NCBI GenBank assembly: GCA_017651245.1
Contig: JAGCDQ010000070.1
Coordinates: forward strand, 1 to 36,676
Direction: 5' to 3'
Source: Bacteroidaceae bacterium
Lineage (GTDB): Bacteria > Bacteroidota > Bacteroidia > Bacteroidales > Bacteroidaceae
DNA length: 36,676 nucleotides
The notes beneath the pieces are model-generated. The model was not told the DNA's origin, did not search any database, and saw nothing but the letters and a program-made list of their open reading frames with translations. Shown here piece after piece: positions 25,410 through 36,676 of the stretch. The position numbers and the translations under genes were made by a program. The stretch's first letter is position 1. The number at the start of each line of letters is the position of its first letter.

Positions 25410-28352
25410 TTATGAATTTTTATCAACCATTTCCATCCATTTCTTGACCTGCTCAATACACCAAGGCAACTGGTCGCGGACTTGTTGAACCCAGAAACGG
25501 ATGACATCCCAACCTTCACGCATCAGAGCTTGATTACGTAGTTGGCCATTATAGGAAAGTTCACCTGTCCAAGTCTGGTGATACATCGCCCCATCCACCT
25601 CTATGTCAAGTTTCTTCCCTTTATGGAAGAGGGCAAGATCAAGGTAATATTTGTCCACATGATATTGAGCAGTTACAGGAATGCCTGCATCAGATAGGGC
25701 TTGTTGTAATATGTGTTCCCACTCGGATGATTCCACAGGCGCATCTTTCCCACAGCTATATTCTGCAAAATGCTCCAAATAGCTGACACCACATTGTTTG
25801 CAATATTTTTTGTCTCCAACTGTCACCAACAATGCTCTTGCTCTTGTGATGGCTACATTAAACAAGTTCCCTGTTGATTTCAGAAACATCAGACTTTGTG
25901 ACTTGGTTCCATCAGAAACAACAGGAGAGAAAATAATCACATCTCTTTCATCACCTTGAAATTTGTGTACGGTATCAATAAGAATCTTGTTATGTAGCTC
26001 CAAATAGTTACGTAATTCAGAATCACGCTCTAATGCTTTGGTTATCATTTCTGCCTGTAGATGGAAAGGAGTAGTGACACCAATACTACCATCAAACTCA
26101 AGTTCCATTGCCATGCGTCTAAGGATACGAATCACACCCTCTGCTTCCTGAAGATTGTATGCACCTCCTGTTTCTGGGCGTATGGTCTTTCCTTTCACAT
26201 CCATCCATTGCATTCCTAATATAGGTTTCCCATTATTGGGCGATTGTAAACGGCTATAATCAGTTGCAATGCGAAGTGTGTTATCGTAAAATTCTTGATT
26301 TGAGAACTGGATGATGTCAAGGAAACTACGATGATGGTCTCGTAATTGTATAATATTCTCAGCCTCTGTCATGCTTTCAGCAAGGTCATAGATTGAGCAA
26401 CCTCGATATGACCATCTTGGCTCTATTTCATTGTTTAGGATTAATGACAAATCTGTCTGCTTGCTCAGAATACAAATGTGATTCAGTTGTTGTTTGTCAC
26501 CTATAACAGCCACACGTTTTGCTCTCATAAGCAATGGAATCATAGATGCAATATCACATTGGCTGGCTTCATCAATGATAAGCAAATCATAAATGGCTTC
26601 TTTGAAAGGAATTCGTCTGCGTGCACTCAAAGATGTAATGGCACTTACAGGCAGCAACTCCTTCAATGCAGGAAAGTAATTATCAACATGGTTGTGCTCG
26701 AGAAGGCTTATATAATCATGCAAGTATCCTCTTTTCGTGGTGTTGAATGAACCAATATGTTGATTCAGCCATGAGTTCCATGCCGTCCTTGCCTTTGCTT
26801 GTAATTCCACATGCTCTGCCATCATTGCTGCATCAAGCTGTTCAAGTGATGCGGAATCACACATCTCTGCAAGAAGGTTGTTGTAATTTGCAATCAGACT
26901 CAAATCAACCATCAGAGACTTGTATTCCGTATCGAACGTCATCCACTCACGTTCTGACATTTGAGGAGTCACCCTTAGCCCTGGATGATATTTTTCCATA
27001 AACGAGTTGATAGAACATTTGACATCCTCCAAATCATTTATGATTTTCTTCTCCCAACGTTTTCTAAATAATTTGTCGAATAACTTGTGAGGTCCTTCTT
27101 GTAAGCATAAACGATACTCTATAAAGATATCATATGCCTTTTTAACTACATCTATTTCGTTCTCAGTTATTACTCCAATCCATTGTTGATATTTGTCTCT
27201 AATCGCACAAACAGATTGTTCCAATTCATCCAGTTTGTTTCTGTTCTCGACGATTTGCCATTTATATTCACGCTTAGCATCATAGCTTGAATACACACGT
27301 TTGTATTCACCCAAAGCATTTGCATACGAGTCCCCTTTTGCATATGCCTTTTCCCATAATTGGGCATAATCAGATATACATTGTTTTGCGCTCTTTTCGT
27401 ATCTAAGAACTAACGGCAATTCATTATTTAGTGAGTTGACACGCTTCACCACAACATCTACAGCATTGTTGTTTTTGCTGGTAAACAACACATTCTGACC
27501 CGCAATTGCTGCATTGATAATGAGATTAGCTACAACTTGTGTCTTGCCGGTTCCTGGAGGACCTGCTATCAAAGTGACATCAGCACTCAGAGCTGAACGG
27601 ACAGCTTTTTCTTGTTCATCATTTAGGGGCAGAACCTCAAGTATTTCTTTTTCGTACGGAGGATTTTTGGAAAATTGCTTGTGGAGAAACTTCCATAATA
27701 TAGAGTGCTGAATGTCATAATCGCCCCAATTACTAAGATTGACTAATTCATTGCTTAATCCTACAGTATATGGTGTGGGATCTTTGGCAAATAGGATTGC
27801 ACGATTCAAAATGCCATCTGGGTCGTCAATCCTCAATTGTCCTTTCTTCAAGTTCTCTATATCTAAATCATCTCGCCATTCCCAATCAGGGCGAATAGTT
27901 CTAAGCAAAGTGACTTTCTCTGACAAAACATCAAATGCCGCATGACCATCTGTGAAGCCCAATTCCGCCTCCAGTTCTCTCAATTCATAAATGTTCTCCG
28001 TCTTTTCGTTAGTAGAGTACTTATCTATGATGTCCTTATTTATCAGCAATTCATCATCGATTGAAAAACCTTCTGGCTTACCATGAGTCCCATCATTATA
28101 TGTGACTTGGATAATGAACAATGGAGAAAGGAAATGTTTGCTCTTCAAAACAGGATAACCTATTAGCAAATCTTTCTCGTTGTCATGATTGCCTCGAAGA
28201 AAAGCCCCAATTTCAGGCTGCTTCAATGCCCCTTTGTTTAGCCAAGGCAAACCTTTATAAGATTGCTCGTCTTTCATTGAAGCACGGAGAGTGGTATTAC
28301 TCTCCAATGCAATACAACTGATATAATATTTACAAAGGGACGATAATGTCAT
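25410..28352 (-). CDS. SF1 helicase fused to a PD-(D/E)XK (DUF559/Vsr-like) nuclease
   Basis: A 980-residue protein. Residues 1-230 are an N-terminal region that I do not recognise. The SF1 (UPF1-like) core has the Q-motif LNDEQEKAVRSAL (243-255), Walker A GPPGTGKTQ (264-272), Walker B IIDEASQ (592-598), motif III GDKQQLNHI (618-626), HKFQGDERDV (796-805) and motif VI VAITRARA (833-840). A long helical insertion (about 300-590) lies between motifs Ia and II. Residues about 870-975 are a restriction-fold domain with Asp905 in YYLDLAL, DIEVDGAMYH (916-925) and a RNQALMREGWDVIRFW helix, typical of DUF559. Such helicase-nuclease fusions are common in defence islands. It heads a run with the GIY-YIG-like gene. 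Met26 is an alternative start. Confidence 0.88.
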   Translation of the reverse strand: MTLSSLCKYYISCIALESNTTLRASMKDEQSYKGLPWLNKGALKQPEIGAFLRGNHDNEKDLLIGYPVLKSKHFLSPLFIIQVTYNDGTHGKPEGFSIDDELLINKDIIDKYSTNEKTENIYELRELEAELGFTDGHAAFDVLSEKVTLLRTIRPDWEWRDDLDIENLKKGQLRIDDPDGILNRAILFAKDPTPYTVGLSNELVNLSNWGDYDIQHSILWKFLHKQFSKNPPYEKEILEVLPLNDEQEKAVRSALSADVTLIAGPPGTGKTQVVANLIINAAIAGQNVLFTSKNNNAVDVVVKRVNSLNNELPLVLRYEKSAKQCISDYAQLWEKAYAKGDSYANALGEYKRVYSSYDAKREYKWQIVENRNKLDELEQSVCAIRDKYQQWIGVITENEIDVVKKAYDIFIEYRLCLQEGPHKLFDKLFRKRWEKKIINDLEDVKCSINSFMEKYHPGLRVTPQMSEREWMTFDTEYKSLMVDLSLIANYNNLLAEMCDSASLEQLDAAMMAEHVELQAKARTAWNSWLNQHIGSFNTTKRGYLHDYISLLEHNHVDNYFPALKELLPVSAITSLSARRRIPFKEAIYDLLIIDEASQCDIASMIPLLMRAKRVAVIGDKQQLNHICILSKQTDLSLILNNEIEPRWSYRGCSIYDLAESMTEAENIIQLRDHHRSFLDIIQFSNQEFYDNTLRIATDYSRLQSPNNGKPILGMQWMDVKGKTIRPETGGAYNLQEAEGVIRILRRMAMELEFDGSIGVTTPFHLQAEMITKALERDSELRNYLELHNKILIDTVHKFQGDERDVIIFSPVVSDGTKSQSLMFLKSTGNLFNVAITRARALLVTVGDKKYCKQCGVSYLEHFAEYSCGKDAPVESSEWEHILQQALSDAGIPVTAQYHVDKYYLDLALFHKGKKLDIEVDGAMYHQTWTGELSYNGQLRNQALMREGWDVIRFWVQQVRDQLPWCIEQVKKWMEMVDKNS

Positions 28353-28388
28353 TTTTCTCGCAAATAATAAGATATAACAGTTTTTAGT

Positions 28389-28538
28389 TTATTTTGTAAT
28401 CTTTCCCCATACATCCTGTTTAGCTGTATACACTGAATCAAGCACTACATTCCCATCCTTGTCAAAGCCATAGAACTTCTCTCCATCCCTCACACGAGCA
28501 GATGGCGAGTAAGCCAACCTAACAACTATTACAAACAT
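28389..28538 (-). CDS. Small unrecognised ORF, possibly a gene fragment
   Basis: Fifty codons from ATG (28536-28538) to TAA encode a 49-residue peptide beginning MFVIVVRLAYSPSARVRDG and containing YGFDKDGNVVLDSVY. The composition is protein-like and a good promoter (-33/-7, 20-base spacing) lies about 45 bases upstream. The F/Y-D-x-x-G-N pattern resembles repeat units of the secreted protein encoded at 29301-30359, so it may be a remnant of such a gene. No function is evident. Confidence 0.4.
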   Translation of the reverse strand: MFVIVVRLAYSPSARVRDGEKFYGFDKDGNVVLDSVYTAKQDVWGKITK

Positions 28539-28581
28539 GATTCATTTCATTGGCTTTTGGGTCTTAGATGGGTTTCAGTTG

Positions 28582-28613
28582 CGAAGGTACGACATTATTT
28601 TATCCCTACCAAA
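28582..28613 (-). promoter_or_regulatory. Promoter upstream of the 49-residue ORF
   Basis: A -33 TTTG (28610-28613 on the complement) and a -7 box TACCTTCG (28582-28589) are 20 bases apart. The -33 half lies in a 39-base sequence duplicated at 36410-36448. Confidence 0.5.
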
Positions 28614-28646
28614 TAAATACAAAGAAAAAAAGTTTGGGAAGGAGTA
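28608..28646. repeat. 39-base direct repeat, copy 1 (copy 2 at 36410-36448)
   Basis: The 39 bases, including the run AAAGTTTGGGAAGGAGTA, are identical at both places. In both cases a rho-independent terminator for the minus strand follows directly at the higher-coordinate side. Confidence 0.88.
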
Positions 28647-28688
28647 TAAAAACGCCTCCAACTCTGAAGATTAGGGGAGTGGAGGCGT
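28646..28688 (-). terminator. Strong minus-strand terminator (copy 1 of a repeated hairpin)
   Basis: Stem ACGCCTCCA (28652-28660) / TGGAGGCGT (28680-28688), extended by ACTC/GAGT, is followed on the minus strand by TTTTTAT. A near-identical hairpin occurs at 30746-30788. No gene lies between it and the promoter box at 28781. Confidence 0.8.
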
Positions 28689-28769
28689 AAGGGGGGATGT
28701 TATTATTTCCAATTTTCTGTTCCATTGTATATGAATGCACTACTTATTTACGCATCAACTGCTTTATCA

Positions 28770-28954
28770 CATTTCGAAGGCAAAGTTACGTGTTTTTCAT
28801 GAAGTGACAGCGGATAGGGTGTGGAAAAGTTTTGTCGCCAAAAAGCAACAACTAAATCATTCTAAAACAATAGCTTGCAAAGAAAAATGTTACATGATTG
28901 AAAAAAAGTGGTGTGGAAAAGTGATGGATGTAACATCATTTTCAGATGTTTTTT
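28770..28954. repeat. Three-copy intergenic element, copy A
   Basis: Shares about 185 bases with copy C (35538-35716) and its core, from 28818, with copy B (30538-30673). Internal features are two GTGTGGAAAAGT boxes and two ATGTTACAT/ATGTAACAT boxes. A TAACTTTG -7 box (28781-28788) lies at its left end, pointing left. It follows the terminator at 28971-29010. Confidence 0.9.
28781..28788 (-). promoter_or_regulatory. -7 promoter box at the edge of copy A
   Basis: TAACTTTG on the minus strand. In copies B and C the box at the same place is TAATTTTG and drives a secreted-protein gene. Here only about 95 bases separate it from the terminator hairpin. Confidence 0.45.
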
Positions 28955-28970
28955 GGGGGAGGTGTGAGAA

Positions 28971-29010
28971 TAAAAAAGAGAGGAAATCATGCTGTTATGA
29001 CCACCTCTCC
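28971..29010 (-). terminator. Minus-strand terminator before copy A
   Basis: Stem GAGAGG (28978-28983) / CCTCTC (29004-29009) with a 20-base loop is followed on the minus strand by six Ts. Confidence 0.65.
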
Positions 29011-29044
29011 TTTATAGTTTTAGAACATGGGAATTACAATGTTT

Positions 29045-29140
29045 TCAGGAAAAACTGCACAGCCTTAAGCAGGGGTTGCAGCTCATTTTGAATAATAGAA
29101 AAGACAATATCACCATTGCTGCAATTATTATCTTTTTCAT
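29045..29140 (-). CDS. Short hydrophobic peptide ORF
   Basis: Thirty-one codons beginning MKKIIIAAMVILSFLLFKMS, then a Cys-containing tail, ending at TGA (29045-29047). It looks like a signal peptide or lone membrane peptide and sits between a gene remnant and a terminator. It may be the N-terminal part of a lost secreted-protein gene or a real small membrane peptide; no ribosome-binding evidence decides. Confidence 0.3.
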   Translation of the reverse strand: MKKIIIAAMVILSFLLFKMSCNPCLRLCSFS

Positions 29141-29153
29141 TCTCTTTTACTTA

Positions 29154-29260
29154 TTATGGAATCCTTTTCAATGTGAAAGTGGCATCAGAGTTGCCGTTCC
29201 TGTCATAAACCTCTTTTCTTTTGGTGTATCCTCCACTGATGTGTTTATTTGTTCGTATAA
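29154..29260 (-). pseudogene. 3' remnant of a secreted YDxxGN-repeat gene
   Basis: On the minus strand, a frame ending at TAA (29154-29156) reads GGYTKRKEVYDRNGNSDAT followed by FTLKRIP. The YDRNGN motif is like the units of the protein encoded at 29301-30359, but no start codon, signal peptide or 5' part is present. It is read here as the last codons of a deleted paralogue. Confidence 0.4.
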
Positions 29261-29273
29261 CGAATAAGTTTTG

Positions 29274-29305
29274 CAAAGTTAGACAAAATAATGCAACTTT
29301 TCAAA
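29274..29305 (-). promoter_or_regulatory. Promoter overlapping the end of the YDxxGN-repeat gene
   Basis: A -33 TTTG (29302-29305 on the complement) and -7 TAACTTTG (29274-29281) have the standard 20-base spacing. It would transcribe only the remnant and the short hydrophobic ORF before the terminator at 28971. Confidence 0.5.
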
Positions 29306-30359
29306 ATATCGTATAGTAAAAGCGCGTTTCAACTCTATCATCATCGTCCTCATCATCCTCGTCTTCGTCCAGATGCCAAAGACGGGACTTCTGCATGAGC
29401 TTATGATGATACTTGATGTCCATGTAGAGGGGATTCCTCAGGTTCACCATCTTGGGTATCAGGCCATTCCCCATGATAGACGCCCCTTCTTGATTCAGGT
29501 CATAGATGTAAGTCTCAGAAAAGACGTGCGTCCACTTTGTCTGCCCCGTTCTTCTGTAAATCCTTGCCTGCAAGAGGTTTCCCTGAGGGTCAAACAGGTA
29601 ATCTTGCATGGATTCTCTATCCCCATGATCCCTCAGCCGCAGAATGATTTTCACTTCATTCATCCAATCTCCATTATACGAGACCTCACTCCTTTTCCAC
29701 TCTCTTGCTTCCTCCCCATCATAAATGGAATCTACGGATGCCGTCATCCTCCCTTTCTCGTCATAATGCCTGATTTCCACATTCTTCTTGGGATTCGCTT
29801 CCAAATCTTCGTCCACCACTTTGACTTGGTTCCCCTTGGCATCATATTCATAATGAATCACATCCGTTTTCTTCCACTCTCCATTCCTTTTCCTATAGTC
29901 GGATGTTGATTGCAAATGTCCCTGCTCATCATATTGGTAATCCGTATAACTTTCCACCTGAAGACCTTTTTCTCTGTCAAGACCCTCCACCCATCCTGAC
30001 CGATGAATCTTTCCCTCACTTCCATAAGTGTAGTACGTGTAAGACTTTTCCCCAATCTTCCATTCTCCATCATTGGAGAGGAAACTGAAAACACGCAAGG
30101 TGTCGTTGCCCTGCTCATCATAGAAGAACTCTCTTTTATTTGTCAAAGACCACGTTTCATTTTCAGACCTATCGTAATACAGAATCCGCTCCACTTTCCC
30201 TTCCTCTGTATAGGAGAACTCAAATTTCCTTGTTTGTTCTGGCTGGTTGTCATCACGAACGACAATACTGTCCAGCTGTCCCACATACTGGTTTTTCTGT
30301 GCCTGCATCCCAAGCACGCTCAGGCATGATGTCATTAAGAAAAGAGTCAGCTTTTTCAT
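29301..30359 (-). CDS. Secreted protein with RHS-like YD repeats
   Basis: A 352-residue protein with signal peptide MKKLTLFLMTSCLSVLGMQAQ. The mature part is made of repeating units of 25-35 residues with Y-D-E-x-G-x motifs (FFYDEQGNDTLRVF; YQYDEQGHLQSTSDY; YEYDAKGNQVKVVD; HYDEKGRMTASVDS), a YD/RHS-like beta pattern seen in secreted Bacteroidetes proteins of unknown function. Near the C-terminus is a stretch of aspartate and glutamate (LDEDEDDEDDDDRVE) before RFYYTIF. Signal peptide and about 110 bases of 5' leader are nearly identical to those of the gene at 34057-35436, although the mature proteins are unrelated. Repeat copy B lies directly upstream. Location is periplasm or surface; function unknown. 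Confidence 0.7.
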   Translation of the reverse strand: MKKLTLFLMTSCLSVLGMQAQKNQYVGQLDSIVVRDDNQPEQTRKFEFSYTEEGKVERILYYDRSENETWSLTNKREFFYDEQGNDTLRVFSFLSNDGEWKIGEKSYTYYTYGSEGKIHRSGWVEGLDREKGLQVESYTDYQYDEQGHLQSTSDYRKRNGEWKKTDVIHYEYDAKGNQVKVVDEDLEANPKKNVEIRHYDEKGRMTASVDSIYDGEEAREWKRSEVSYNGDWMNEVKIILRLRDHGDRESMQDYLFDPQGNLLQARIYRRTGQTKWTHVFSETYIYDLNQEGASIMGNGLIPKMVNLRNPLYMDIKYHHKLMQKSRLWHLDEDEDDEDDDDRVETRFYYTIF

Positions 30360-30459
30360 GATTGTTTTTTTTTATAGTTGTCTCTACCTCTATATTCCCC
30401 ATTTTTGAAAAATGTATAATCCAAACAGCAACTTTTCTTCATCAAAGCTGCATTTTTAA

Positions 30460-30673
30460 CATTTCGCTTGCAAAATTACATGTTTTTCTCCCAACTACCA
30501 AAGAATTCAATTTACAAAAAATTTACATTTTAATTTGGGTGTGGAAAAGTAAAGTCGCCAAAACACGTCAACTAAACCATTCTAAAACAATGACTTGCAA
30601 AGAAAAATGTTACATGAGTGAAAGAAATGGGGGTGGAAAAGTGATGGATGTTACATCATTTTCAGATGTTTTT
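30460..30673. repeat. Three-copy intergenic element, copy B
   Basis: The core (30538-30673) matches copies A and C, including both GTGGAAAAGT boxes and both ATGTTACAT boxes. The part next to the promoter (about 30488-30536) is different from A and C and contains a -33 TTTG. It lies upstream of the YD-repeat gene and directly follows the terminator at 30746. Confidence 0.88.
30471..30502 (-). promoter_or_regulatory. Promoter of the YD-repeat secreted protein gene
   Basis: A -33 TTTG (30499-30502 on the complement) and -7 TAATTTTG (30471-30478) are separated by 20 bases. The leader to the ATG is about 105 bases and homologous to that of the gene at 34057. Confidence 0.6.
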
Positions 30674-30745
30674 CTGTTCCAAAAACAGCGAAGACTCCAA
30701 AAAATCCTCAATAAAGAAATAACGAATAAAACGGTGAGAAAGCAA

Positions 30746-30788
30746 TAAAAAACACCTCCGACTCTGATGATTTGGGGAGTGGAGGCGT
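30746..30788 (-). terminator. Terminator of the decayed toxin-antitoxin locus (copy 2 of the hairpin)
   Basis: Stem ACACCTCCGACTC (30752-30764) / GAGTGGAGGCGT (30777-30788) is followed on the minus strand by TTTTTTATT. It is a near copy of the hairpin at 28646-28688 and lies 18 bases after the stop of the toxin remnant. Confidence 0.8.
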
Positions 30789-30805
30789 ATGGGGGAGAAT
30801 AATAG

Positions 30806-30901
30806 TTATCCGAACAAATCCGAATGGGTTCCTGTACCTGTAAAGAGAAGGGTTAACTCCGTGTCCTTGCGAAAGGACTTCGTCATTTGAATTTCGTACA
30901 T
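30806..30901 (-). pseudogene. YafQ/RelE-family toxin with internal deletion
   Basis: Thirty-one codons read MYEIQMTKSFRKD followed by TELTLLFTGTGTHSDLFG. The first part is the N-terminal strand and helix start of a YafQ-type mRNA interferase and the second part is the family's C-terminal strand ending TGTHSDLF. The roughly 60 central residues, including the catalytic histidines, are missing, and the two ends are joined in frame. It must be inactive. It starts four bases after the antitoxin stop, as in an intact operon. Confidence 0.82.
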
Positions 30902-30905
30902 GTGC

Positions 30906-31109
30906 TTAGATTCCTAATGACTGAAACATTTCTTCTGAAGAGGAGAACTTCTCCACACGTCCTGCTAACTTATCTTCCTGTGAGCGAAGATAGCTACTCT
31001 TTGACTTCTGAGAAAGTTTATGGGTCAGAACGCCTAATGCCTTCAAATATACCATCAATGCCTTACCATTGGTGGAACGTTCATTTACTGTAATTGCGTA
31101 TGTTGCCAT
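30906..31109 (-). CDS. Antitoxin of the YafQ-type locus
   Basis: A 67-residue protein beginning MATYAITVNERSTNGKALMV. The N-terminal ITVNERxxxGKAL pattern is characteristic of Bacteroidetes antitoxins paired with RelE/YafQ toxins, with the N-terminal half for dimerisation and DNA binding and the C-terminal half (GRVEKFSSSEEMFQSLGI) for toxin wrapping. Its cognate toxin gene downstream has lost the middle of its coding sequence, so this is an orphan antitoxin. Its promoter region (31117-31176) is identical over 60 bases to that of the second antitoxin at 36091-36351. It may still repress that promoter, which would couple the two loci. Confidence 0.78.
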   Translation of the reverse strand: MATYAITVNERSTNGKALMVYLKALGVLTHKLSQKSKSSYLRSQEDKLAGRVEKFSSSEEMFQSLGI

Positions 31110-31116
31110 AGCTATT

Positions 31117-31176
31117 TCCTTTCTTTATTCTTTTCAGTTGCAAAGATACTACATTTCTTTCGATATTACCAAATAA
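31117..31176. repeat. 60-base promoter repeat, copy 1 (copy 2 at 36359-36418)
   Basis: Sixty bases are identical between the promoters of the two antitoxin genes, although the proteins differ. The block holds both -7 and -33 elements and ends close to the start codons. Confidence 0.92.
31141..31173 (-). promoter_or_regulatory. Promoter of the YafQ-type antitoxin
   Basis: A -33 TTTG (31170-31173 on the complement) and -7 TATCTTTG (31141-31148) are separated by 21 bases, 31 bases upstream of the ATG. Confidence 0.65.
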
Positions 31177-31182
31177 TTTCGT

Positions 31183-31209
31183 CACTTTTTCTTTTTCACT
31201 CATTCACCA
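31183..31209. repeat. 27-base direct repeat at the 3' end of the MG2-type gene (copy 1)
   Basis: Identical to 33885-33911. The repeat covers the last codons (Val-Asn-Glu), the stop and about 13 bases downstream of the MG2-type gene. Confidence 0.9.
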
Positions 31210-33868
31210 ACACTTTTCCGTCTTCTGTCATTCCTTCCACACTGATGTACATCTCCTCGCAAGTGGAGTTGTTGAAGAACTCCACTTTGGCTTTACCTTG
31301 GGCATCAGTCTTGATGTCGGGTTGCCACCAGATGGTGCGTCGGAAATCCGCCATCGGGGGAATCACGCTGTAGTCCTCTGTCTTGAAGGTGGAGGCTTGG
31401 TTGAACCCTTGGAAGTAGGTGCGGCGAAGTCCTTTGTTGCTCTCGGTGCTGTACCTGATATGCGTGTAGAAATACACTCGGACAGCATTATTCGTTTCCT
31501 TGGGGCTGTCTGGCACAATGTACAGGCTTTTTATGTCGCTCATCCAGAATGGAAAGAATCTGTGGAAGAGAGCTCCGAAGTTACTGGAGACTCCTCCCAG
31601 CGGCTCATTATTGCAATTCTCAAAGTCATCTAAAGGAGTTCCTAAAATCCTATCCACAGTAGTACTTATTGATGAATTCAAGCCCACCCCGTCACTTCCT
31701 TCAAAAAGATCTATCATTCTATCTCCATTATCCACAATCCATTTGATGGGACGACCTCCATAGGATATCCTTCCAGATGTGGAGTCTCTTGGCATTTCCG
31801 AGCAAACAAACATTTTATTGTTCTTGCAAAGGAACTCAAAGATGGTCAATTCAGGCTCGCCCCTGTCAAGAATCTTTTCCAGTTCCTTATCTATGTCATA
31901 GTATAATGTTGCATACTGTTTCCCATACGCCTCATTCTTGTATCTCCAATCATCATTGGTGAAGTACCGCTTCTTTGCCTTCACCGTCACGTTCTGCAAT
32001 ACGTGGTCTTTCTCTGTGATGGGAATGAACTCGTCTTCCTCCTCTTCCAACTCCTCAAAGGGCTTCTTCACAAAAGCATTGGGCTTAAGCGGATGCAGGA
32101 TGGTTTCTTCAAGGGGAGTGAGGTATCTTGCCTCTGGCGAGAACTGTCTGTCAATCCCCACATAATAGGTCTTGGTCTTTTCTTTCTTCTTCCCGTCCCT
32201 CGTCGTGTAGATGCACATCTTCCATTCGCCATCTATAAACGGCAGTTTGAAAGCATAGCTGCCTACAGAATCTGTCCTTGTGTTGCCAATCAGGCTCTGT
32301 CCTTTCTCGTTATAAAGGATGGCATACAGATGGACGTTTGAAACAGGATTTCGCTTACGATAGACGTTCAACTTGCCAAACAGGTAGAACTGGTCTTCAA
32401 TAGGCTGTGCCTTGCGGAAACTGTACCTTCCCGACATCAATCTCCAGTCATAGCGTCGCCAGCCTTGCGTCAGCATCAACAGGTCGGCATCTTGTCGATG
32501 TTCCTTGTCGTCTGCCTCGAAGTAGTAGTCAACATTGTGGATATAGCCCTTCACTTCAGAACTGAGCAGCATCCAGGTCTTCATGTTGCCTTGCTTGCCG
32601 TTCGTCATGTTTTTGGCATCAATCGCAGAGAAAGAGAGGTTGGCATGAGGTTTTGTCTGCAATTCCAATTCCACCTTTCCACAAGGTTTCAACTTACTTG
32701 TCTTAGCCACAATTCGGATGCTATCCGATTTGTCTGGCTTAGGACACAAGAAGAAAAGTCTTTCTGCCACAATCCTTCCCATACTGTCAAAGAAGGTCAT
32801 CTGGTTCACTCCCTCTGGCATAGATTGTCTGTCCAGCTCTATCTCGATGAGTGGGGCAGCAGTCAGTGTGTCGCATCGGAAGATGTTGCCGTTATGCATG
32901 AGGACATAACCCAGTTGATTGCCACAGAGGTTGTCTGTGCATTGAAGAGTGGCAAGCATGTTCTCGTTGACTGCATCCACATGAAGCGCACATCCTTCCT
33001 TCTTTGCTTCTGGCAGCGTGAAGTGCTGCACCCCTCTACTCATTCTCTTCCTGAGGTTCCTCATCTGGAAAGTCAGCTTGCCTGAATCTGGCACCAGTTC
33101 AAAGATTCCCCTTCCCAATGTGTCCGTCTGGACAGAGGCAAGCACGTCTCCTGCCTCGTTCATCACAAAGCCTTCTCCCTCGTGCGGATGCCCGTTGTCA
33201 TCCACTGCCAATACCGCCACACGGCATTTCTTGCCCACGATGAGGTCACCACCTTCGGGGTAGAACTTCACGCTGATGGTCTTCATCAGGTCGTTGGTGT
33301 AGATGCCCTCGTCTATCGCATTCTGGTAGAGCGAGTCCTCGCTGATGCGGTTGTTAGGGTCACGGGCTGAATAGAGCATGGTTCTTATGGTCAGGTCGGA
33401 GTAGTCGCCCTCCTTCTTGGGAGCCTTGAACACAGGGAAGACACGGGAGAACACAGCGTTCGTTCCCCAGTTGGTCATGTAGCGAGTGTAGGCACGAACC
33501 TCATAATAGCCCGATGTGAGCAGGGTGTCCAGCTTGATGTCCCCATGAGACACTCCTAAGGAGTCGATGGGGTATTTGCGTGTCTTGACCACATCGCCAC
33601 TCGGATTCAGCAGTTCCACATACAGCACCTTGCTCAAGTCCGACAAATGTCCGTTGTCTGTTCTTGTTACATAGGCCTTGAACCAAAGGGTTTCATTCTC
33701 GAAGTAGCCCATGTTGTCGAAGTGCAGATACACCTTCTCCTGTGGCATCACCTTATTGAAGTTCATCGCCTTCTGGATATACGACAAGATGCGCGTTGTC
33801 TCCTCACTTTGTGCATGTATGGACAAAGTAAAGAGCATCAAGAATAATATGTGGAGCAGTTTGTACAT
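31196..33868 (-). CDS. Large secreted protein with MG2 (macroglobulin-like) and plug-like domains
   Basis: An 890-residue protein starting MYKLLHILFLMLFTLSIHAQ, a clean signal peptide. Residues about 38-150 (PQEKVYLHFDNMGYFENETLWFKAYV..., SGYYEVRAYTRYM) are an MG2-type macroglobulin domain. Further beta domains follow, including a carboxypeptidase-regulatory-like one near 505-570 (NVYRKRNPVSNVHLYAILYNE). An acidic stretch EELEEEEDEF precedes a plug-like domain (VTVKAKKRYF ... GGRPIKWIVDNG). This layout is common in Bacteroidetes surface proteins of unknown role. The frame extends 11 codons to a GTG, but the ATG at 33868 gives the standard signal peptide. The gene is bracketed by a 27-base direct repeat. 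Confidence 0.75.
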   Translation of the reverse strand: MYKLLHILFLMLFTLSIHAQSEETTRILSYIQKAMNFNKVMPQEKVYLHFDNMGYFENETLWFKAYVTRTDNGHLSDLSKVLYVELLNPSGDVVKTRKYPIDSLGVSHGDIKLDTLLTSGYYEVRAYTRYMTNWGTNAVFSRVFPVFKAPKKEGDYSDLTIRTMLYSARDPNNRISEDSLYQNAIDEGIYTNDLMKTISVKFYPEGGDLIVGKKCRVAVLAVDDNGHPHEGEGFVMNEAGDVLASVQTDTLGRGIFELVPDSGKLTFQMRNLRKRMSRGVQHFTLPEAKKEGCALHVDAVNENMLATLQCTDNLCGNQLGYVLMHNGNIFRCDTLTAAPLIEIELDRQSMPEGVNQMTFFDSMGRIVAERLFFLCPKPDKSDSIRIVAKTSKLKPCGKVELELQTKPHANLSFSAIDAKNMTNGKQGNMKTWMLLSSEVKGYIHNVDYYFEADDKEHRQDADLLMLTQGWRRYDWRLMSGRYSFRKAQPIEDQFYLFGKLNVYRKRNPVSNVHLYAILYNEKGQSLIGNTRTDSVGSYAFKLPFIDGEWKMCIYTTRDGKKKEKTKTYYVGIDRQFSPEARYLTPLEETILHPLKPNAFVKKPFEELEEEEDEFIPITEKDHVLQNVTVKAKKRYFTNDDWRYKNEAYGKQYATLYYDIDKELEKILDRGEPELTIFEFLCKNNKMFVCSEMPRDSTSGRISYGGRPIKWIVDNGDRMIDLFEGSDGVGLNSSISTTVDRILGTPLDDFENCNNEPLGGVSSNFGALFHRFFPFWMSDIKSLYIVPDSPKETNNAVRVYFYTHIRYSTESNKGLRRTYFQGFNQASTFKTEDYSVIPPMADFRRTIWWQPDIKTDAQGKAKVEFFNNSTCEEMYISVEGMTEDGKVLVNE

Positions 33869-33884
33869 GGAGTTATAGATTTTC

Positions 33885-33911
33885 CACTTTTTCTTTTTCA
33901 CTCATTCACCA
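33885..33911. repeat. 27-base direct repeat upstream of the MG2-type gene (copy 2)
   Basis: Identical to 31183-31209. Here it lies 16 bases upstream of the ATG and still carries the bases encoding Val-Asn-Glu-stop, as if it were the tail of a lost paralogue in tandem. Confidence 0.9.
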
Positions 33912-34056
33912 TTTACTTTTTTAATTATTGACAGCACAGAACTTCACAGTCCCGTGCTGCCCATAGCGTGATTTTTCTTGCATGTGTTGCTACTAAATCT
34001 TTTACTAATCTATCGAAAAAAACCATCTTGTTGTTTCTGTTTATCCAGCCTTCCAA

Positions 34057-35436
34057 CTATTTGGCCACTTGGTTTTGCCGTTCCTCGCTTCTAAGATAAA
34101 CCATCAAGAGCTCTGCAATGTCTTTCATTCTGCCTGTAAAAATGGATTGGGGAATCAATTGTTTCAGCACTTTTGACGGCAATGCCCCTTCCTGTATGAA
34201 GCACAAGGAGCAACCTTCCTCGTTTCCATGTTCCTTCAGGTAGTTCCTGAGGATGGAGTCGGTCTCCTCTGCAGTATGGTATTTGTTGGCGTTCTCTATC
34301 ACTTCGTCTGCCTTGATCCAATTATTGTAGAATCCTGTTCCACTCACATAGAAAGAGCCATTCATCACTTTCACCTCAGCCTTTTCGCCTGGCACGAAGG
34401 GGAATCGGACGCAATGGGTGCAGATGGAGCCATCAGGGAATGTGGCGAACAAGTCTGCCAGATAGGGCTTGTCGAGATAAGTGGAGAAGGAACACTTCTT
34501 GTCTTTGGCAGCAATGTCAGCAATCTGGTTTCTGCCATATCCGTTCAGCACGTTATACAAATACACCAGATAGCCGGAATCACCGATGCCCTCTGAGATG
34601 TGGACGTTCATGCTGAAGTTGGGTTTTCTCTTCTTAGACTGTTCTGCCTTGCGAACGCCTATTATCTGGTAGTGCTGCTTATCATCATGATAAGAAAAGA
34701 ACTTCGCGCCCTTTGGCAATGGCTCGAAGGCGTAGTAACCACCGAACACGCGCACATCCTGGCTGTTGTTATCATCCACTTCTCCCATCAGGGCACGCTT
34801 CAGCTTGTACTGGTTGCCTGCTTCATCTTCAAGATATGCCTCTTTGGAAATGTTCATTTTATATGTGTGCTCGTTGTACACAATCCTGCACACGGTCTCC
34901 TCCTCATTGAAAATGACATCCTTTATATACATAGAGTTGGGCACGCTTGTGTCTTTGTCATACGCTACATCCTTCCACACTTTGCCCTTCACCTTGGGCA
35001 GATGAGGCGATTCCCATTTAGTTTCCTTTCTGACAGCTTCCACGGCACGAGCGATTTTCATCCTGTAGCTATAGGGTCTTTCCATTTCGAAATAACCGTT
35101 GTGCACCGTCAGTTTCACCGTCTCGCCTGGCACGAAGAAGAGACCAATCCACGCAGAGCAAAGTTCGCCTCCAGGGAAGATGCAGCGTACGCGGCCAGCC
35201 TTCATCTTGTCCAACGGAATGGAATAGGTGAATCGCTTGTTCACCACAGGAACTGTGGCGATCGGCTTGCTGTCCTCATCAATCCTGAAATACTCGTCGC
35301 CTATATAGATGTTGTAGCACGAGTCCGTGATATTCTCATCCACATAGCCGTCAATCGTAAATACTTGTTTCTCTTGTGCCTGCATCCCAAGCACGTTCAG
35401 GCATAATGCCATTAAGAAAAGAGTCAGCTTTTTCAT
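34057..35436 (-). CDS. Secreted protein with two DUF4369-like domains, no thioredoxin domain
   Basis: A 459-residue protein with signal peptide MKKLTLFLMALCLNVLGMQAQ. Residues about 25-122 and 273-372 are related to each other: FTIDGYVDENITDSCYNIYI / FSMNVHISEGIGDSGYLVYL, and FFVPGETVKLTVHNGYF / FPFVPGEKAEVKVMNGSF. They resemble the DUF4369 domain found ahead of thioredoxin domains in Bacteroidetes TlpA-like proteins. Between them (about 165-270) is another beta domain with FEPLPKGAKFF. No CxxC thioredoxin motif is present, so redox activity is not expected. The C-terminal 85 residues are helical. Signal peptide and leader match the gene at 29301-30359. Repeat copy C lies upstream. Envelope location is likely; function unknown. 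Confidence 0.7.
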   Translation of the reverse strand: MKKLTLFLMALCLNVLGMQAQEKQVFTIDGYVDENITDSCYNIYIGDEYFRIDEDSKPIATVPVVNKRFTYSIPLDKMKAGRVRCIFPGGELCSAWIGLFFVPGETVKLTVHNGYFEMERPYSYRMKIARAVEAVRKETKWESPHLPKVKGKVWKDVAYDKDTSVPNSMYIKDVIFNEEETVCRIVYNEHTYKMNISKEAYLEDEAGNQYKLKRALMGEVDDNNSQDVRVFGGYYAFEPLPKGAKFFSYHDDKQHYQIIGVRKAEQSKKRKPNFSMNVHISEGIGDSGYLVYLYNVLNGYGRNQIADIAAKDKKCSFSTYLDKPYLADLFATFPDGSICTHCVRFPFVPGEKAEVKVMNGSFYVSGTGFYNNWIKADEVIENANKYHTAEETDSILRNYLKEHGNEEGCSLCFIQEGALPSKVLKQLIPQSIFTGRMKDIAELLMVYLRSEERQNQVAK

Positions 35437-35537
35437 GATTGTAAATTTTATTAGTTGTTTCTATTTGTATATTACCCGTTTTACTAAAAATGTATAATCC
35501 GAAAGGCACTTTTTTTACATGATAGGTGCATTTTTAA

Positions 35538-35716
35538 CATTTCGCTTGCAAAATTACGTGTTTTTCATGAAGTGACAGCGGATAGGGTGTGGAAAAGTTT
35601 TGTCGCCAAAATACAACAACTAAATCATTCTAAAACAATAGCTTGTAAAGAAAAATGTTACATGACTGAAAGAAACTGGTGTGGAAAAGTGATGGATGTT
35701 ACATCAAATTTTAGAT
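35538..35716. repeat. Three-copy intergenic element, copy C
   Basis: Nearly identical to copy A over most of its length and to copy B over the core. It contains both GTGTGGAAAAGT boxes and both ATGTTACAT boxes. It lies between the terminator of the YoeB locus and the promoter of the DUF4369-like gene. Confidence 0.9.
35549..35556 (-). promoter_or_regulatory. -7 promoter box of the DUF4369-like gene
   Basis: TAATTTTG on the minus strand, at the same position within copy C as the box of copy B. No -33 TTTG is found here, unlike copy B. The leader to the ATG is about 108 bases. Confidence 0.45.
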
Positions 35717-35738
35717 ATCAGGGGATTCTATAATAACG

Positions 35739-35759
35739 AAAACGCCCCAAAAAGGGACG
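35739..35759 (-). terminator. Terminator of the YoeB locus
   Basis: Stem CGCCCC (35743-35748) / GGGACG (35754-35759) with a five-base loop is followed on the minus strand by TTTTCG. It lies 59 bases after the toxin stop. Confidence 0.5.
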
Positions 35760-35818
35760 AAAAGAAAAAGTGTAAACAGTATGAAACTAGTTTCAGTATT
35801 TCAGAAATAATATGTTGA

Positions 35819-36094
35819 TTATTTGTCGTTGTAGTGTTCTTCTGCCTGGATAATTAGGACGGTAACACGGTCATCATAAATGTCGTAGATGATGCGGTCA
35901 GCGGCAGTGATGTGGCGCGAGTAGGTCACGTCGTGCCCACCGACAAGAGGTTCTGGATGCCCAAGACCAGTACGAGGATGCTCCATGATGTCGAGCAGAA
36001 TCTTGGTAGCTTTCTTAAATAGGCGTGGATTGGATTTCTTCCACTTCCGCAACGTCTTGTCCGCTTCCTTGGAATACTCTATCGTGTACATCAT
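35819..36094 (-). CDS. YoeB-family (Txe/YoeB) toxin
   Basis: A 91-residue RelE-fold mRNA interferase of the Txe/YoeB family: YTIEYSKEADKTLRKWKKSN at the start, HPRTGLGHPEPLVGGHDVTYSRHI in the middle, RIIYDIYDDRVTVLIIQAEEHYNDK at the end. The C-terminal His84-Tyr85 pair and the Arg and Glu positions of the YoeB active site are present, so it looks intact. These toxins cut mRNA in the ribosomal A site when free. The ATG overlaps the antitoxin stop as ATGA. Initiation may be at either of two successive ATG codons. Confidence 0.9.
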   Translation of the reverse strand: MMYTIEYSKEADKTLRKWKKSNPRLFKKATKILLDIMEHPRTGLGHPEPLVGGHDVTYSRHITAADRIIYDIYDDRVTVLIIQAEEHYNDK

Positions 36095-36351
36095 AGACTG
36101 TCGAAGTATTTCTGCATCTCCTCAGGAGTGTGGCATGAAATGGTCTCGCCTTTGGCGTATTCCTCACGGGCTTTCTTCATCGAACGGCGCAGGGCGGGCG
36201 TAATGCTTCTGTCATCGTTGATGGTGGCGGTGCGCACCGATGCGATGCCACGAATCAGTTTCAAGGCTTTCTTGATATCGGCCACCACGGCATTGTCCTC
36301 CAGCGTGATAATCATCTGGGTGGACGGAGGTGTTAAAGTTGTTGCAATCAT
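36091..36351 (-). CDS. Antitoxin of the YoeB-family locus
   Basis: An 86-residue protein directly upstream of and overlapping the YoeB-type toxin. The N-terminal half (MIITLEDNAVVADIKKALKL) has the strand-helix pattern of a small dimerisation domain; the C-terminal half (MKKAREEYAKGETISCHTPEEMQKYFDSL) is the helical toxin-binding tail common in antitoxins of RelE/YoeB toxins. Its fold family (Phd/YefM or another) is not certain. The promoter is a 60-base sequence identical to that of the orphan antitoxin at 30906-31109. Met13 is an alternative start. Confidence 0.8.
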   Translation of the reverse strand: MIATTLTPPSTQMIITLEDNAVVADIKKALKLIRGIASVRTATINDDRSITPALRRSMKKAREEYAKGETISCHTPEEMQKYFDSL

Positions 36352-36358
36352 CTTGTTG

Positions 36359-36418
36359 TCCTTTCTTTATTCTTTTCAGTTGCAAAGATACTACATTTCT
36401 TTCGATATTACCAAATAA
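36359..36418. repeat. 60-base promoter repeat, copy 2
   Basis: Identical to 31117-31176 and overlaps the 39-base repeat that continues to 36448. Confidence 0.92.
36383..36415 (-). promoter_or_regulatory. Promoter of the YoeB-locus antitoxin
   Basis: A -33 TTTG (36412-36415 on the complement) and -7 TATCTTTG (36383-36390), 21 bases apart, 31 bases upstream of the ATG. Confidence 0.65.
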
Positions 36419-36448
36419 ATACAAAGAAAAAAAGTTTGGGAAGGAGTA
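36410..36448. repeat. 39-base direct repeat, copy 2 (copy 1 at 28608-28646)
   Basis: Identical to 28608-28646. Here it adjoins a T-run and hairpin at 36451-36501. Confidence 0.88.
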
Positions 36449-36450
36449 AT

Positions 36451-36501
36451 AAAAAACGAAGTCCCGCCGTGGTACGCATTGTTAGGAGGCGTGACGGGAA
36501 C
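36451..36501 (-). terminator. Minus-strand terminator upstream of the YoeB locus
   Basis: Stem GTCCCGCC (36461-36468) / GGCGTGACGGGAAC (36488-36501) with a small bulge is followed on the minus strand by six Ts. A promoter lies only ten bases further upstream, with no gene between. Confidence 0.55.
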
Positions 36502-36509
36502 TGTTGCTA

Positions 36510-36541
36510 CGAAGTTAGTGCTTTTATTAAAAACCACCAAA
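36510..36541 (-). promoter_or_regulatory. Promoter without an evident gene
   Basis: A -33 TTTG (36538-36541 on the complement) and -7 TAACTTCG (36510-36517) are separated by 20 bases. The transcript would meet the hairpin at 36451-36501 after about 55 bases. Confidence 0.5.
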
Positions 36542-36567
36542 TAAAAGCGGTGTTTTTTCATCAGAAG

Positions 36568-36606
36568 TTATTCACTTATTCACTTATTCACTTTGGACAT
36601 TAAGGT
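36568..36606. repeat. 39-base sequence, inverted copy of 19887-19925
   Basis: Contains three TTATTCAC units and CTTTGGACATTAAGG. It matches the reverse complement of the leader of the P5-like gene with one mismatch. Bases 36607-36676 show no gene that I can identify and end in an AT-rich run. Confidence 0.8.
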
Positions 36607-36676
36607 ATTTGAATACTCACAAGGAGGAAGGTAATCATCAGTGATAGGTTATTTAGAATTTTTATATTATATATAT

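Follow-up and report, generated by a model that had tools for sequence, protein, structure and literature searches.

Paired boxes ahead of a Bacteroidetes promoter travel with a family of tetratricopeptide-repeat proteins that are probably their regulators

Results

The window analysed here, positions 1 to 36,676 of contig JAGCDQ010000070.1 (forward strand) in the Bacteroidaceae bacterium assembly GCA_017651245.1, carries three copies, A, B and C, of an intergenic element with paired boxes, the subject of this report. The exact box, GTGGAAAAGT, occurs at six sites in the whole window, two per copy and none elsewhere, and the two boxes are 92 bp apart in each copy (28821/28913 in A, 30541/30633 in B and 35589/35681 in C), confirming that the three-copy element proposed in an initial annotation of this DNA is real. 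Allowing one mismatch raises the count to 14, where 2.88 are expected and none of 100 shuffles reaches 14. A repeat search of the window aligned copies A and C at 93% identity over 176 bp and copy B in the same ungapped register at 70%; alignment of the copies shows a 30-bp insertion in B. A second kind of box, resembling ATGTTACAT, lies where the annotation had placed it, with 17 one-mismatch matches against 8.9 expected and two shuffles reaching 17. Among relatives it varies more than the GTGGAAAA boxes do.

On the minus strand the box reads CTTTTCCAC, and the order is a distal TTTTCCACmC box, 92 bp, a proximal box, 40 bp and a Bacteroidetes -7 box, TAnnTTTG, in which every window copy terminates. 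In copy C, the distal box CTTTTCCAC (35681..35689; all features here are on the minus strand) has an outer ATGTAACAT box upstream of it (35696..35704) and an accessory ATGTAACAT box within its unit (35655..35663); the proximal box CTTTTCCAC (35589..35597) stands 40 nt before the -7 box TAATTTTG (35549..35556). Copy B has its distal box at 30633..30641, its accessory ATGTAACAT box at 30607..30615 and its proximal box at 30541..30549, which because of the insertion is 70 nt before the -7 box TAATTTTG (30471..30478). In copy A the distal, accessory ATGTAACAT and proximal boxes are at 28913..28921, 28887..28895 and 28821..28829, the last again 40 nt before the -7 box, here TAACTTTG (28781..28788). 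The leftward -7 box previously noted at the left end of all three copies is thus confirmed. The same annotation had put the element next to a minus-strand promoter; the association with a promoter holds, but by its sequence each copy itself contains the predicted promoter rather than adjoining one.

The promoters of copies B and C precede genes for secreted proteins, as had been reported, with 119 and 120 nt, respectively, from the TA of the -7 box to the ATG. Behind copy C is a gene for a 459-aa protein (34057..35436, minus strand) with a weak DUF4369 match below the cut-off, a homologue of which is found downstream of the same element in another genome of the genus, G032. The next long gene on that strand encodes a 901-aa protein with a weak MG2 match (31196..33901) and would belong to the copy C operon; its homologues stand downstream of elements elsewhere. 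The copy B target is a 352-aa protein with a weak RHS-repeat match (29301..30359, minus strand). Copies B and C lie in a common block of 386 columns at 77% identity (30285-30667 and 35361-35716), which spans the element, the leader and the beginning of the signal peptide (MKKLTLFLM...), the mature proteins behind it being different. The block therefore looks like a promoter-leader-signal-peptide cassette set before an RHS-like protein in one case and a DUF4369-like protein in the other. No gene directly follows the copy A promoter. A terminator-like hairpin of about -18 kcal/mol followed by a T run (28645..28690, minus strand) lies about 90 bp downstream, and copy A could possibly yield a minus-strand transcript of about 100 nt ending there. 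Similar terminator-like hairpins are near elements at 28645-28690 and 30735-30800. A promoter-like 60-bp stretch is 100% identical at 31117-31176 and 36359-36418, the latter preceding, by eye, a putative toxin-antitoxin gene pair at 35819-36351.

We searched the 45 genomes of the genus with a 34-bp composite pattern that did not include the -7 box. This returned 17 elements in nine genomes, and the same pattern read backwards gave one match. All 17 have a second TTTTCCAC 91-93 bp on (one letter short in two), and all 17 have the TAnnTTTG that the pattern did not use, in 16 of them exactly 40 nt past the proximal box; the exception is copy B of the window. Leaving aside three elements that run into contig ends (G026c, G030b and G041), 13 of the remaining 14 have a same-strand gene a short way downstream, and copy A is the one without. 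The three window copies are not the full set, since the same genome has three further full elements, among the 17, on contig C35. Its contig C74 has a single-box form that corresponds to the element minus the inter-box stretch, is still 40 nt from the -7 box and precedes, by eye, a putative extracytoplasmic function (ECF) sigma gene. G032 has two single-box forms of this kind. When the 45 genomes were scanned for a single box, 18 of them gave a total of 29 hits, the distance being exactly 40 nt in 22; the backwards control gave five.

On contig C35, one element lies about 55 bp past the gene of P0006, a 608-aa tetratricopeptide repeat (TPR) protein; behind the element come genes for a small lipoprotein-like protein and a ricin-type lectin/transglutaminase protein. 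P0006 matches Pfam DUF6377 (PF19904) with E 9.5e-7 and 29.1 bits, under the gathering score of 36.7, and NCBIfam BT3442_fam (NF053779) with E 1.8e-22 and 79.8 bits against a cut-off of 940. Its residues 54-607 align to positions 6-562 of the 563 of BT3442_fam, so that it is a distant relative of that family and not a member. DUF6377 matches at E<=0.1 in 10 of 18 relatives, below the cut-off in all six for which scores are shown. A paralogue is encoded on contig C39 of the same genome. Close P0006 homologues (E<1e-100) occur in 12 of the 45 genus genomes, and these 12 include every one of the 10 with strong elements (E<1e-14) (hypergeometric 2e-8, a value that ignores relatedness; nine of the 10 supplied the training set of the model that scored them, and thresholds were set afterwards).

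Beyond the elements it was trained on, that sequence-only model found two in G015, each immediately behind a gene for such a TPR protein, three weaker ones in G017 and G028 with spacings of 92 and 40, and three more with degenerate boxes in the same two genomes. Counting G017 and G028 as well, close homologues of P0006 are present in 10 of 12 element genomes; the match in G017 (E 1.3e-60) ends at a contig end. At E<=0.1 the model matches 43 of 45 genomes, apparently through background similarity among promoters, and anything weaker than about 1e-6 was left out of the element count. Among 13 such weak loci inspected (L160-L172), the proximal box at 40 nt is of the TTTTCCAC type in L160-L163 (with one mismatch in L161) and of the TTTTCCAT type in L166 and L169.

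We then scanned genome contigs described as 84,980 species with the pattern TTTTCCACmC N67-97 TTTTCCACmC N15-45 TAnnTTTG, which names no gene and allows 31 x 31 = 961 spacing combinations. The scan returned 38 loci, 22 with a box distance of 79-81 and 13 with 91-93, and these 35 fall within 12 of the 961 combinations (79-81 or 91-93, with 40-41). The -7 distance is 40 bp in 33 of them and 41 bp in two. The three outliers (83/43, 83/49 and 95/41), on contigs labelled Clostridia, Lachnospiraceae and Oscillospiraceae, look like chance matches. In the 91-93 class, 11 of 13 loci re-find the genus and model elements, and L179 and L183 are new. The L183 contig is labelled Selenomonas but is likely mis-binned, because it carries a homologue of the window protein P0002; a protein 43.5% identical to the copy B target starts 700 nt past its -7 box. 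All 22 loci of the 79-81 class were additions to the elements counted earlier, although L177, L182 and L207 had appeared as weak model matches and share their box-to--7 stretch with L163, L162 and L160, respectively. A same-strand gene lies downstream in 32 of the 33 scan loci with sequence available, L183 being ambiguous. At the place of the -33 box there is a TTGG-like consensus in the 79-81 class and a weaker one in the 91-93 class.

The ATGTTACAT boxes were considered as the main site and demoted: one unit of the 91-93 class preserves them well, as accessory boxes, but by eye they are no constant part of the 79-81 class. Inverted second halves occur near the distal box in four loci of 81-bp spacing (L186, L198, L204 and L209). 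In G015, on contig C49, a single box upstream of another paralogue of the TPR protein lies within a palindrome, GGAGGTGGAAAgcagTTTTCCACCTC (L140:5100-5160). The palindrome and the inverted halves are hints that the box may be bound by a dimer.

To relate the boxes to the TPR proteins, hereafter the regulators, a profile of them (A5) was run against the genes adjoining the scan loci. In the 79-81 class the first downstream gene is a regulator homologue in 19 of 22 loci, two of these being weak matches cut by contig ends (L191, E 2e-16; L209, E 7e-6). In the 91-93 class a regulator lies directly upstream in five of 13 (L174, with two open reading frames (ORFs), L179, L202, L203 and L206) and downstream in one (L208). 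None of the three outliers has an adjacent regulator. Eleven of the 22 loci in the 79-81 class also encode a homologue of the window protein P0003 (E<1e-5); the one at L200 is 30% identical to it over 488 columns.

For the reverse search, the L197 regulator served as query against 261 family genomes, 23 of which yielded 28 regulator homologues; L264 had no usable ORF, leaving 27 loci. We looked for two TTTTCCA (at most one mismatch each) 70-99 bp apart, the nearer one 39-41 nt before TAnnTTTG. Such a pair is present at 22 of the 27, upstream of the gene in 18 and after it in four, and at none with the box reversed. Of 105 orderings of the box letters, 93 give no locus, and only the box and two shifted forms exceed five. 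Five of the 22 were known (L240, L241, L254, L255 and L257), and without them the result is 17 of 22; two of the 17 (L245 and L265) had been weak model matches. Upstream of regulator genes, exact TTTTCCA occurs 20 times within 15-74 nt of a -7 box, and 17 of these are at a distance of 40 or 41 nt. The next letter of the box is T and not C at every one of the 17 new loci, giving TTTTCCAT, mostly TTTTCCATrGG, and each has a listed box distance of 77-82, the one in that range being taken.

Within the regulators, conservation is concentrated at the C-terminus. The last 98 residues of those in the 79-81 class are 42-51% identical to the L202 regulator, against 20-28% for the rest, and an internal hydrophobic segment is present in 17 of 18. 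The two box groups can be told apart by residues of the C-terminal domain, some of them in the putative recognition helix; the comparison set 16 sequences against 23 rows, at least three of which are the same protein again, and omitted L247, which is cut by a contig end. An Xre-like-HTH (helix-turn-helix) match was found in two of 18 full-length regulators, best E 0.00075.

Lipoprotein-like proteins of the regulon share an N-terminus of about CSQDDDxYxSDMYTLAEMGTR and differ behind it (L063:5410-5889, L063:16898-17524, L065, L066, L068, L069 and L138). Its acidic stretch resembles the lipoprotein export signal, as described in the part of PMC5080379 drawn on here.

Discussion

Taken together, we consider it highly likely that each copy is a minus-strand promoter with the upstream activating region of a regulon controlled by a membrane-bound one-component regulator. 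The boxes are very probably the binding sites of a regulator family of gut Bacteroidales, with which they travel. At the heart of this argument from sequence is that a single DNA box and a single protein domain are conserved in parallel. An activating region with two regulator sites was among the options of the initial annotation, and it is the one strongly supported by the fixed geometry, the -7 box in 17 of 17 elements and the linkage in both search directions; the regulator, the geometry and the wider spread had been missed.

In the mechanism that we propose, a membrane-spanning one-component regulator related to the DUF6377/BT3442-type TPR proteins would bind two operators of 8-10 bp (TTTTCCACmC). 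These are separated by about 92 bp, and 40 bp lie between the proximal operator and the -7 box, which places that operator just upstream of the -33 region. The regulator's N-terminal TPR part, probably periplasmic, may sense something beyond the inner membrane; the protein has one internal hydrophobic helix and a conserved C-terminal domain of about 98 residues that is probably DNA-binding. For the window copies, the likely regulators are P0006, beside its own element on C35, and/or the paralogue on C39. Binding at the proximal site, next to -33, would recruit polymerase and thereby activate rather than repress, and the distal site probably acts through cooperative binding or a short DNA loop. 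The targets would be secreted, probably surface proteins (MG2-like proteins, lipoproteins and the lectin-transglutaminase protein) together with ECF sigma operons.

Several observations weigh against this interpretation. Copy B breaks the 40-bp rule, and copy A has no gene. The genomes are related and the thresholds were chosen after seeing the data. The inter-box linkers are still similar in the 81-bp and 92-bp groups (median identity 0.66 and 0.56), suggesting that common descent explains part of the conservation. Likewise, the two box groups are also clades, and relatedness could explain the residues that separate them. Linkage is incomplete: L178, L182 and L201 of the 79-81 class have no adjacent regulator, nor do seven of 13 loci of the 91-93 class have an adjacent regulator ORF; no pair was detected at the regulators L258, L259, L261 and L267, and L266 has a single box only. 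G028 has elements and no regulator at E<=1e-30, and G006 and G020 have a regulator and no strong element. A conserved paralogue lacks a clear adjoining box pair at ten loci (L137 and L146-L154), with a degenerate box match at 42 nt in L153; in several genomes it lies near, by eye, a putative recN. Finally, 17 C-terminal segments gave no significant Pfam match, to an HTH family or otherwise (Xre-like-HTH in one of 17, at E 0.17), and no significant match in PDB sequences. Because of this, DNA binding by the C-terminal domain, which we regard as probable, is argued from conservation and linkage.

The last point, and the 91-93 loci without a regulator nearby, would also be expected if the boxes were the operator of a different transcription factor whose regulon often happens to include the TPR regulator genes. 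Because the boxes of the 79-81 class precede the regulator gene, that gene might there be no more than a target. However, in the five loci of the 91-93 class where the regulator lies upstream of the element, it is not that element's target, and the type of box, TTTTCCAC or TTTTCCAT, tracks the regulator subfamily, though here too relatedness could be the reason. We therefore find a different factor unlikely.

It is far less probable that the copies are a plain transposable repeat like a miniature inverted-repeat transposable element, a possibility raised by the initial annotation. The 93% identity of A and C and the block common to B and C do indicate that segments were duplicated recently. 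However, there are no inverted repeats of 30 nt or more in 26000-36676 (the search covered only that length), the orientation to a same-strand gene is constant in the genus and scan loci alike, and distant regulators have a different box in nearly the same geometry. The inter-box linker of the 79-bp group (15 loci) is nearly random, with a median identity of 0.38 against 0.27 for shuffled sequence, and the spacer to the -7 box, which includes the -33-like TTGG, is better kept (0.63).

A structured RNA or a small peptide is just as improbable and was rejected: although copy A could still give its short transcript and a plus-strand frame is open in all three window copies, RNAalifold on the 17 aligned elements gave no consensus pairs, and the QLNHSKT frame, whose coding role had already been doubted, stops in 12 of the 17 (it is open in the window copies, G032 and G036). 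Single-strand folds of four leader regions gave no reliable shared structure.

If our interpretation of the element as a regulated promoter is right, it may extend to the whole TPR-regulator family of the Bacteroidales, although we offer this only tentatively and think it rather doubtful. There would be one rigid cis-architecture: 77-93 bp between the two operators, and 40-41 bp from the nearer operator to the -7 box that follows it. The operator half-site would differ by subfamily (TTTTCCACmC or TTTTCCATrGG), amounting to a readable recognition code, and the membrane-bound regulator would bridge the two operators, so that a small DNA loop would bring the promoter to the inner membrane.

The operator, its geometry and the second subfamily version may allow regulons to be predicted from sequence alone, and defining the operator makes direct tests of regulator-box binding, subfamily box swaps and looping possible. 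Judging by its predicted targets (MG2-like proteins, lipoproteins, the lectin-transglutaminase protein and ECF sigma operons), the regulon may govern proteins of the cell surface, the envelope or competition. In the open-licence PMC literature, searched mostly by titles and abstract starts, we found no description of the operator, the rigid geometry, the subfamily change of the box or a TPR protein as regulator, and no open-licence PMC literature on DUF6377.

A one-component regulator with tandem operators is a known kind. LuxR/GerE-type activators with tandem operators are single polypeptides with a sensor and a C-terminal DNA-binding domain, and their operator lies just upstream of the core promoter. 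By analogy, the regulators described here would combine a sensor and a putative C-terminal DNA-binding domain in one polypeptide, with an operator before the core promoter. Unlike in those systems, the sensor is a TPR part, probably across the membrane, and the two sites are 77-93 bp apart; Pfam and PDB sequence searches with the C-terminal segments found no GerE match.

The closest described locus is the BT_3442 - BT_3433 cluster of Bacteroides thetaiotaomicron, for which the portion of PMC2954219 used here lists a TPR protein, a small Ig-fold protein, beta-trefoil proteins and MACPF lipoproteins, and describes no operator or regulatory role. The resemblance lies in P0006, which aligns to BT3442_fam along almost its entire length, and in the small lipoprotein-like and ricin-type lectin/transglutaminase proteins encoded after it. 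Unlike in that cluster, the P0006 score is far under the family cut-off, and there was no MACPF match among the proteins scanned here. The promoter itself is of a familiar type. According to the sections of PMC7366714 that we drew on, a TAnnTTTG -7 box with a TTTG -33 box is the primary promoter consensus deduced for Bacteroides fragilis, and the -7 box was confirmed in Flavobacterium johnsoniae. Like these Bacteroidetes sigma-ABfr promoters, every element ends in TAnnTTTG; at the -33 place a TTGG-like sequence is kept in the 79-81 class and is weaker in the 91-93 class. Unlike them, the elements add two fixed putative operator boxes upstream.

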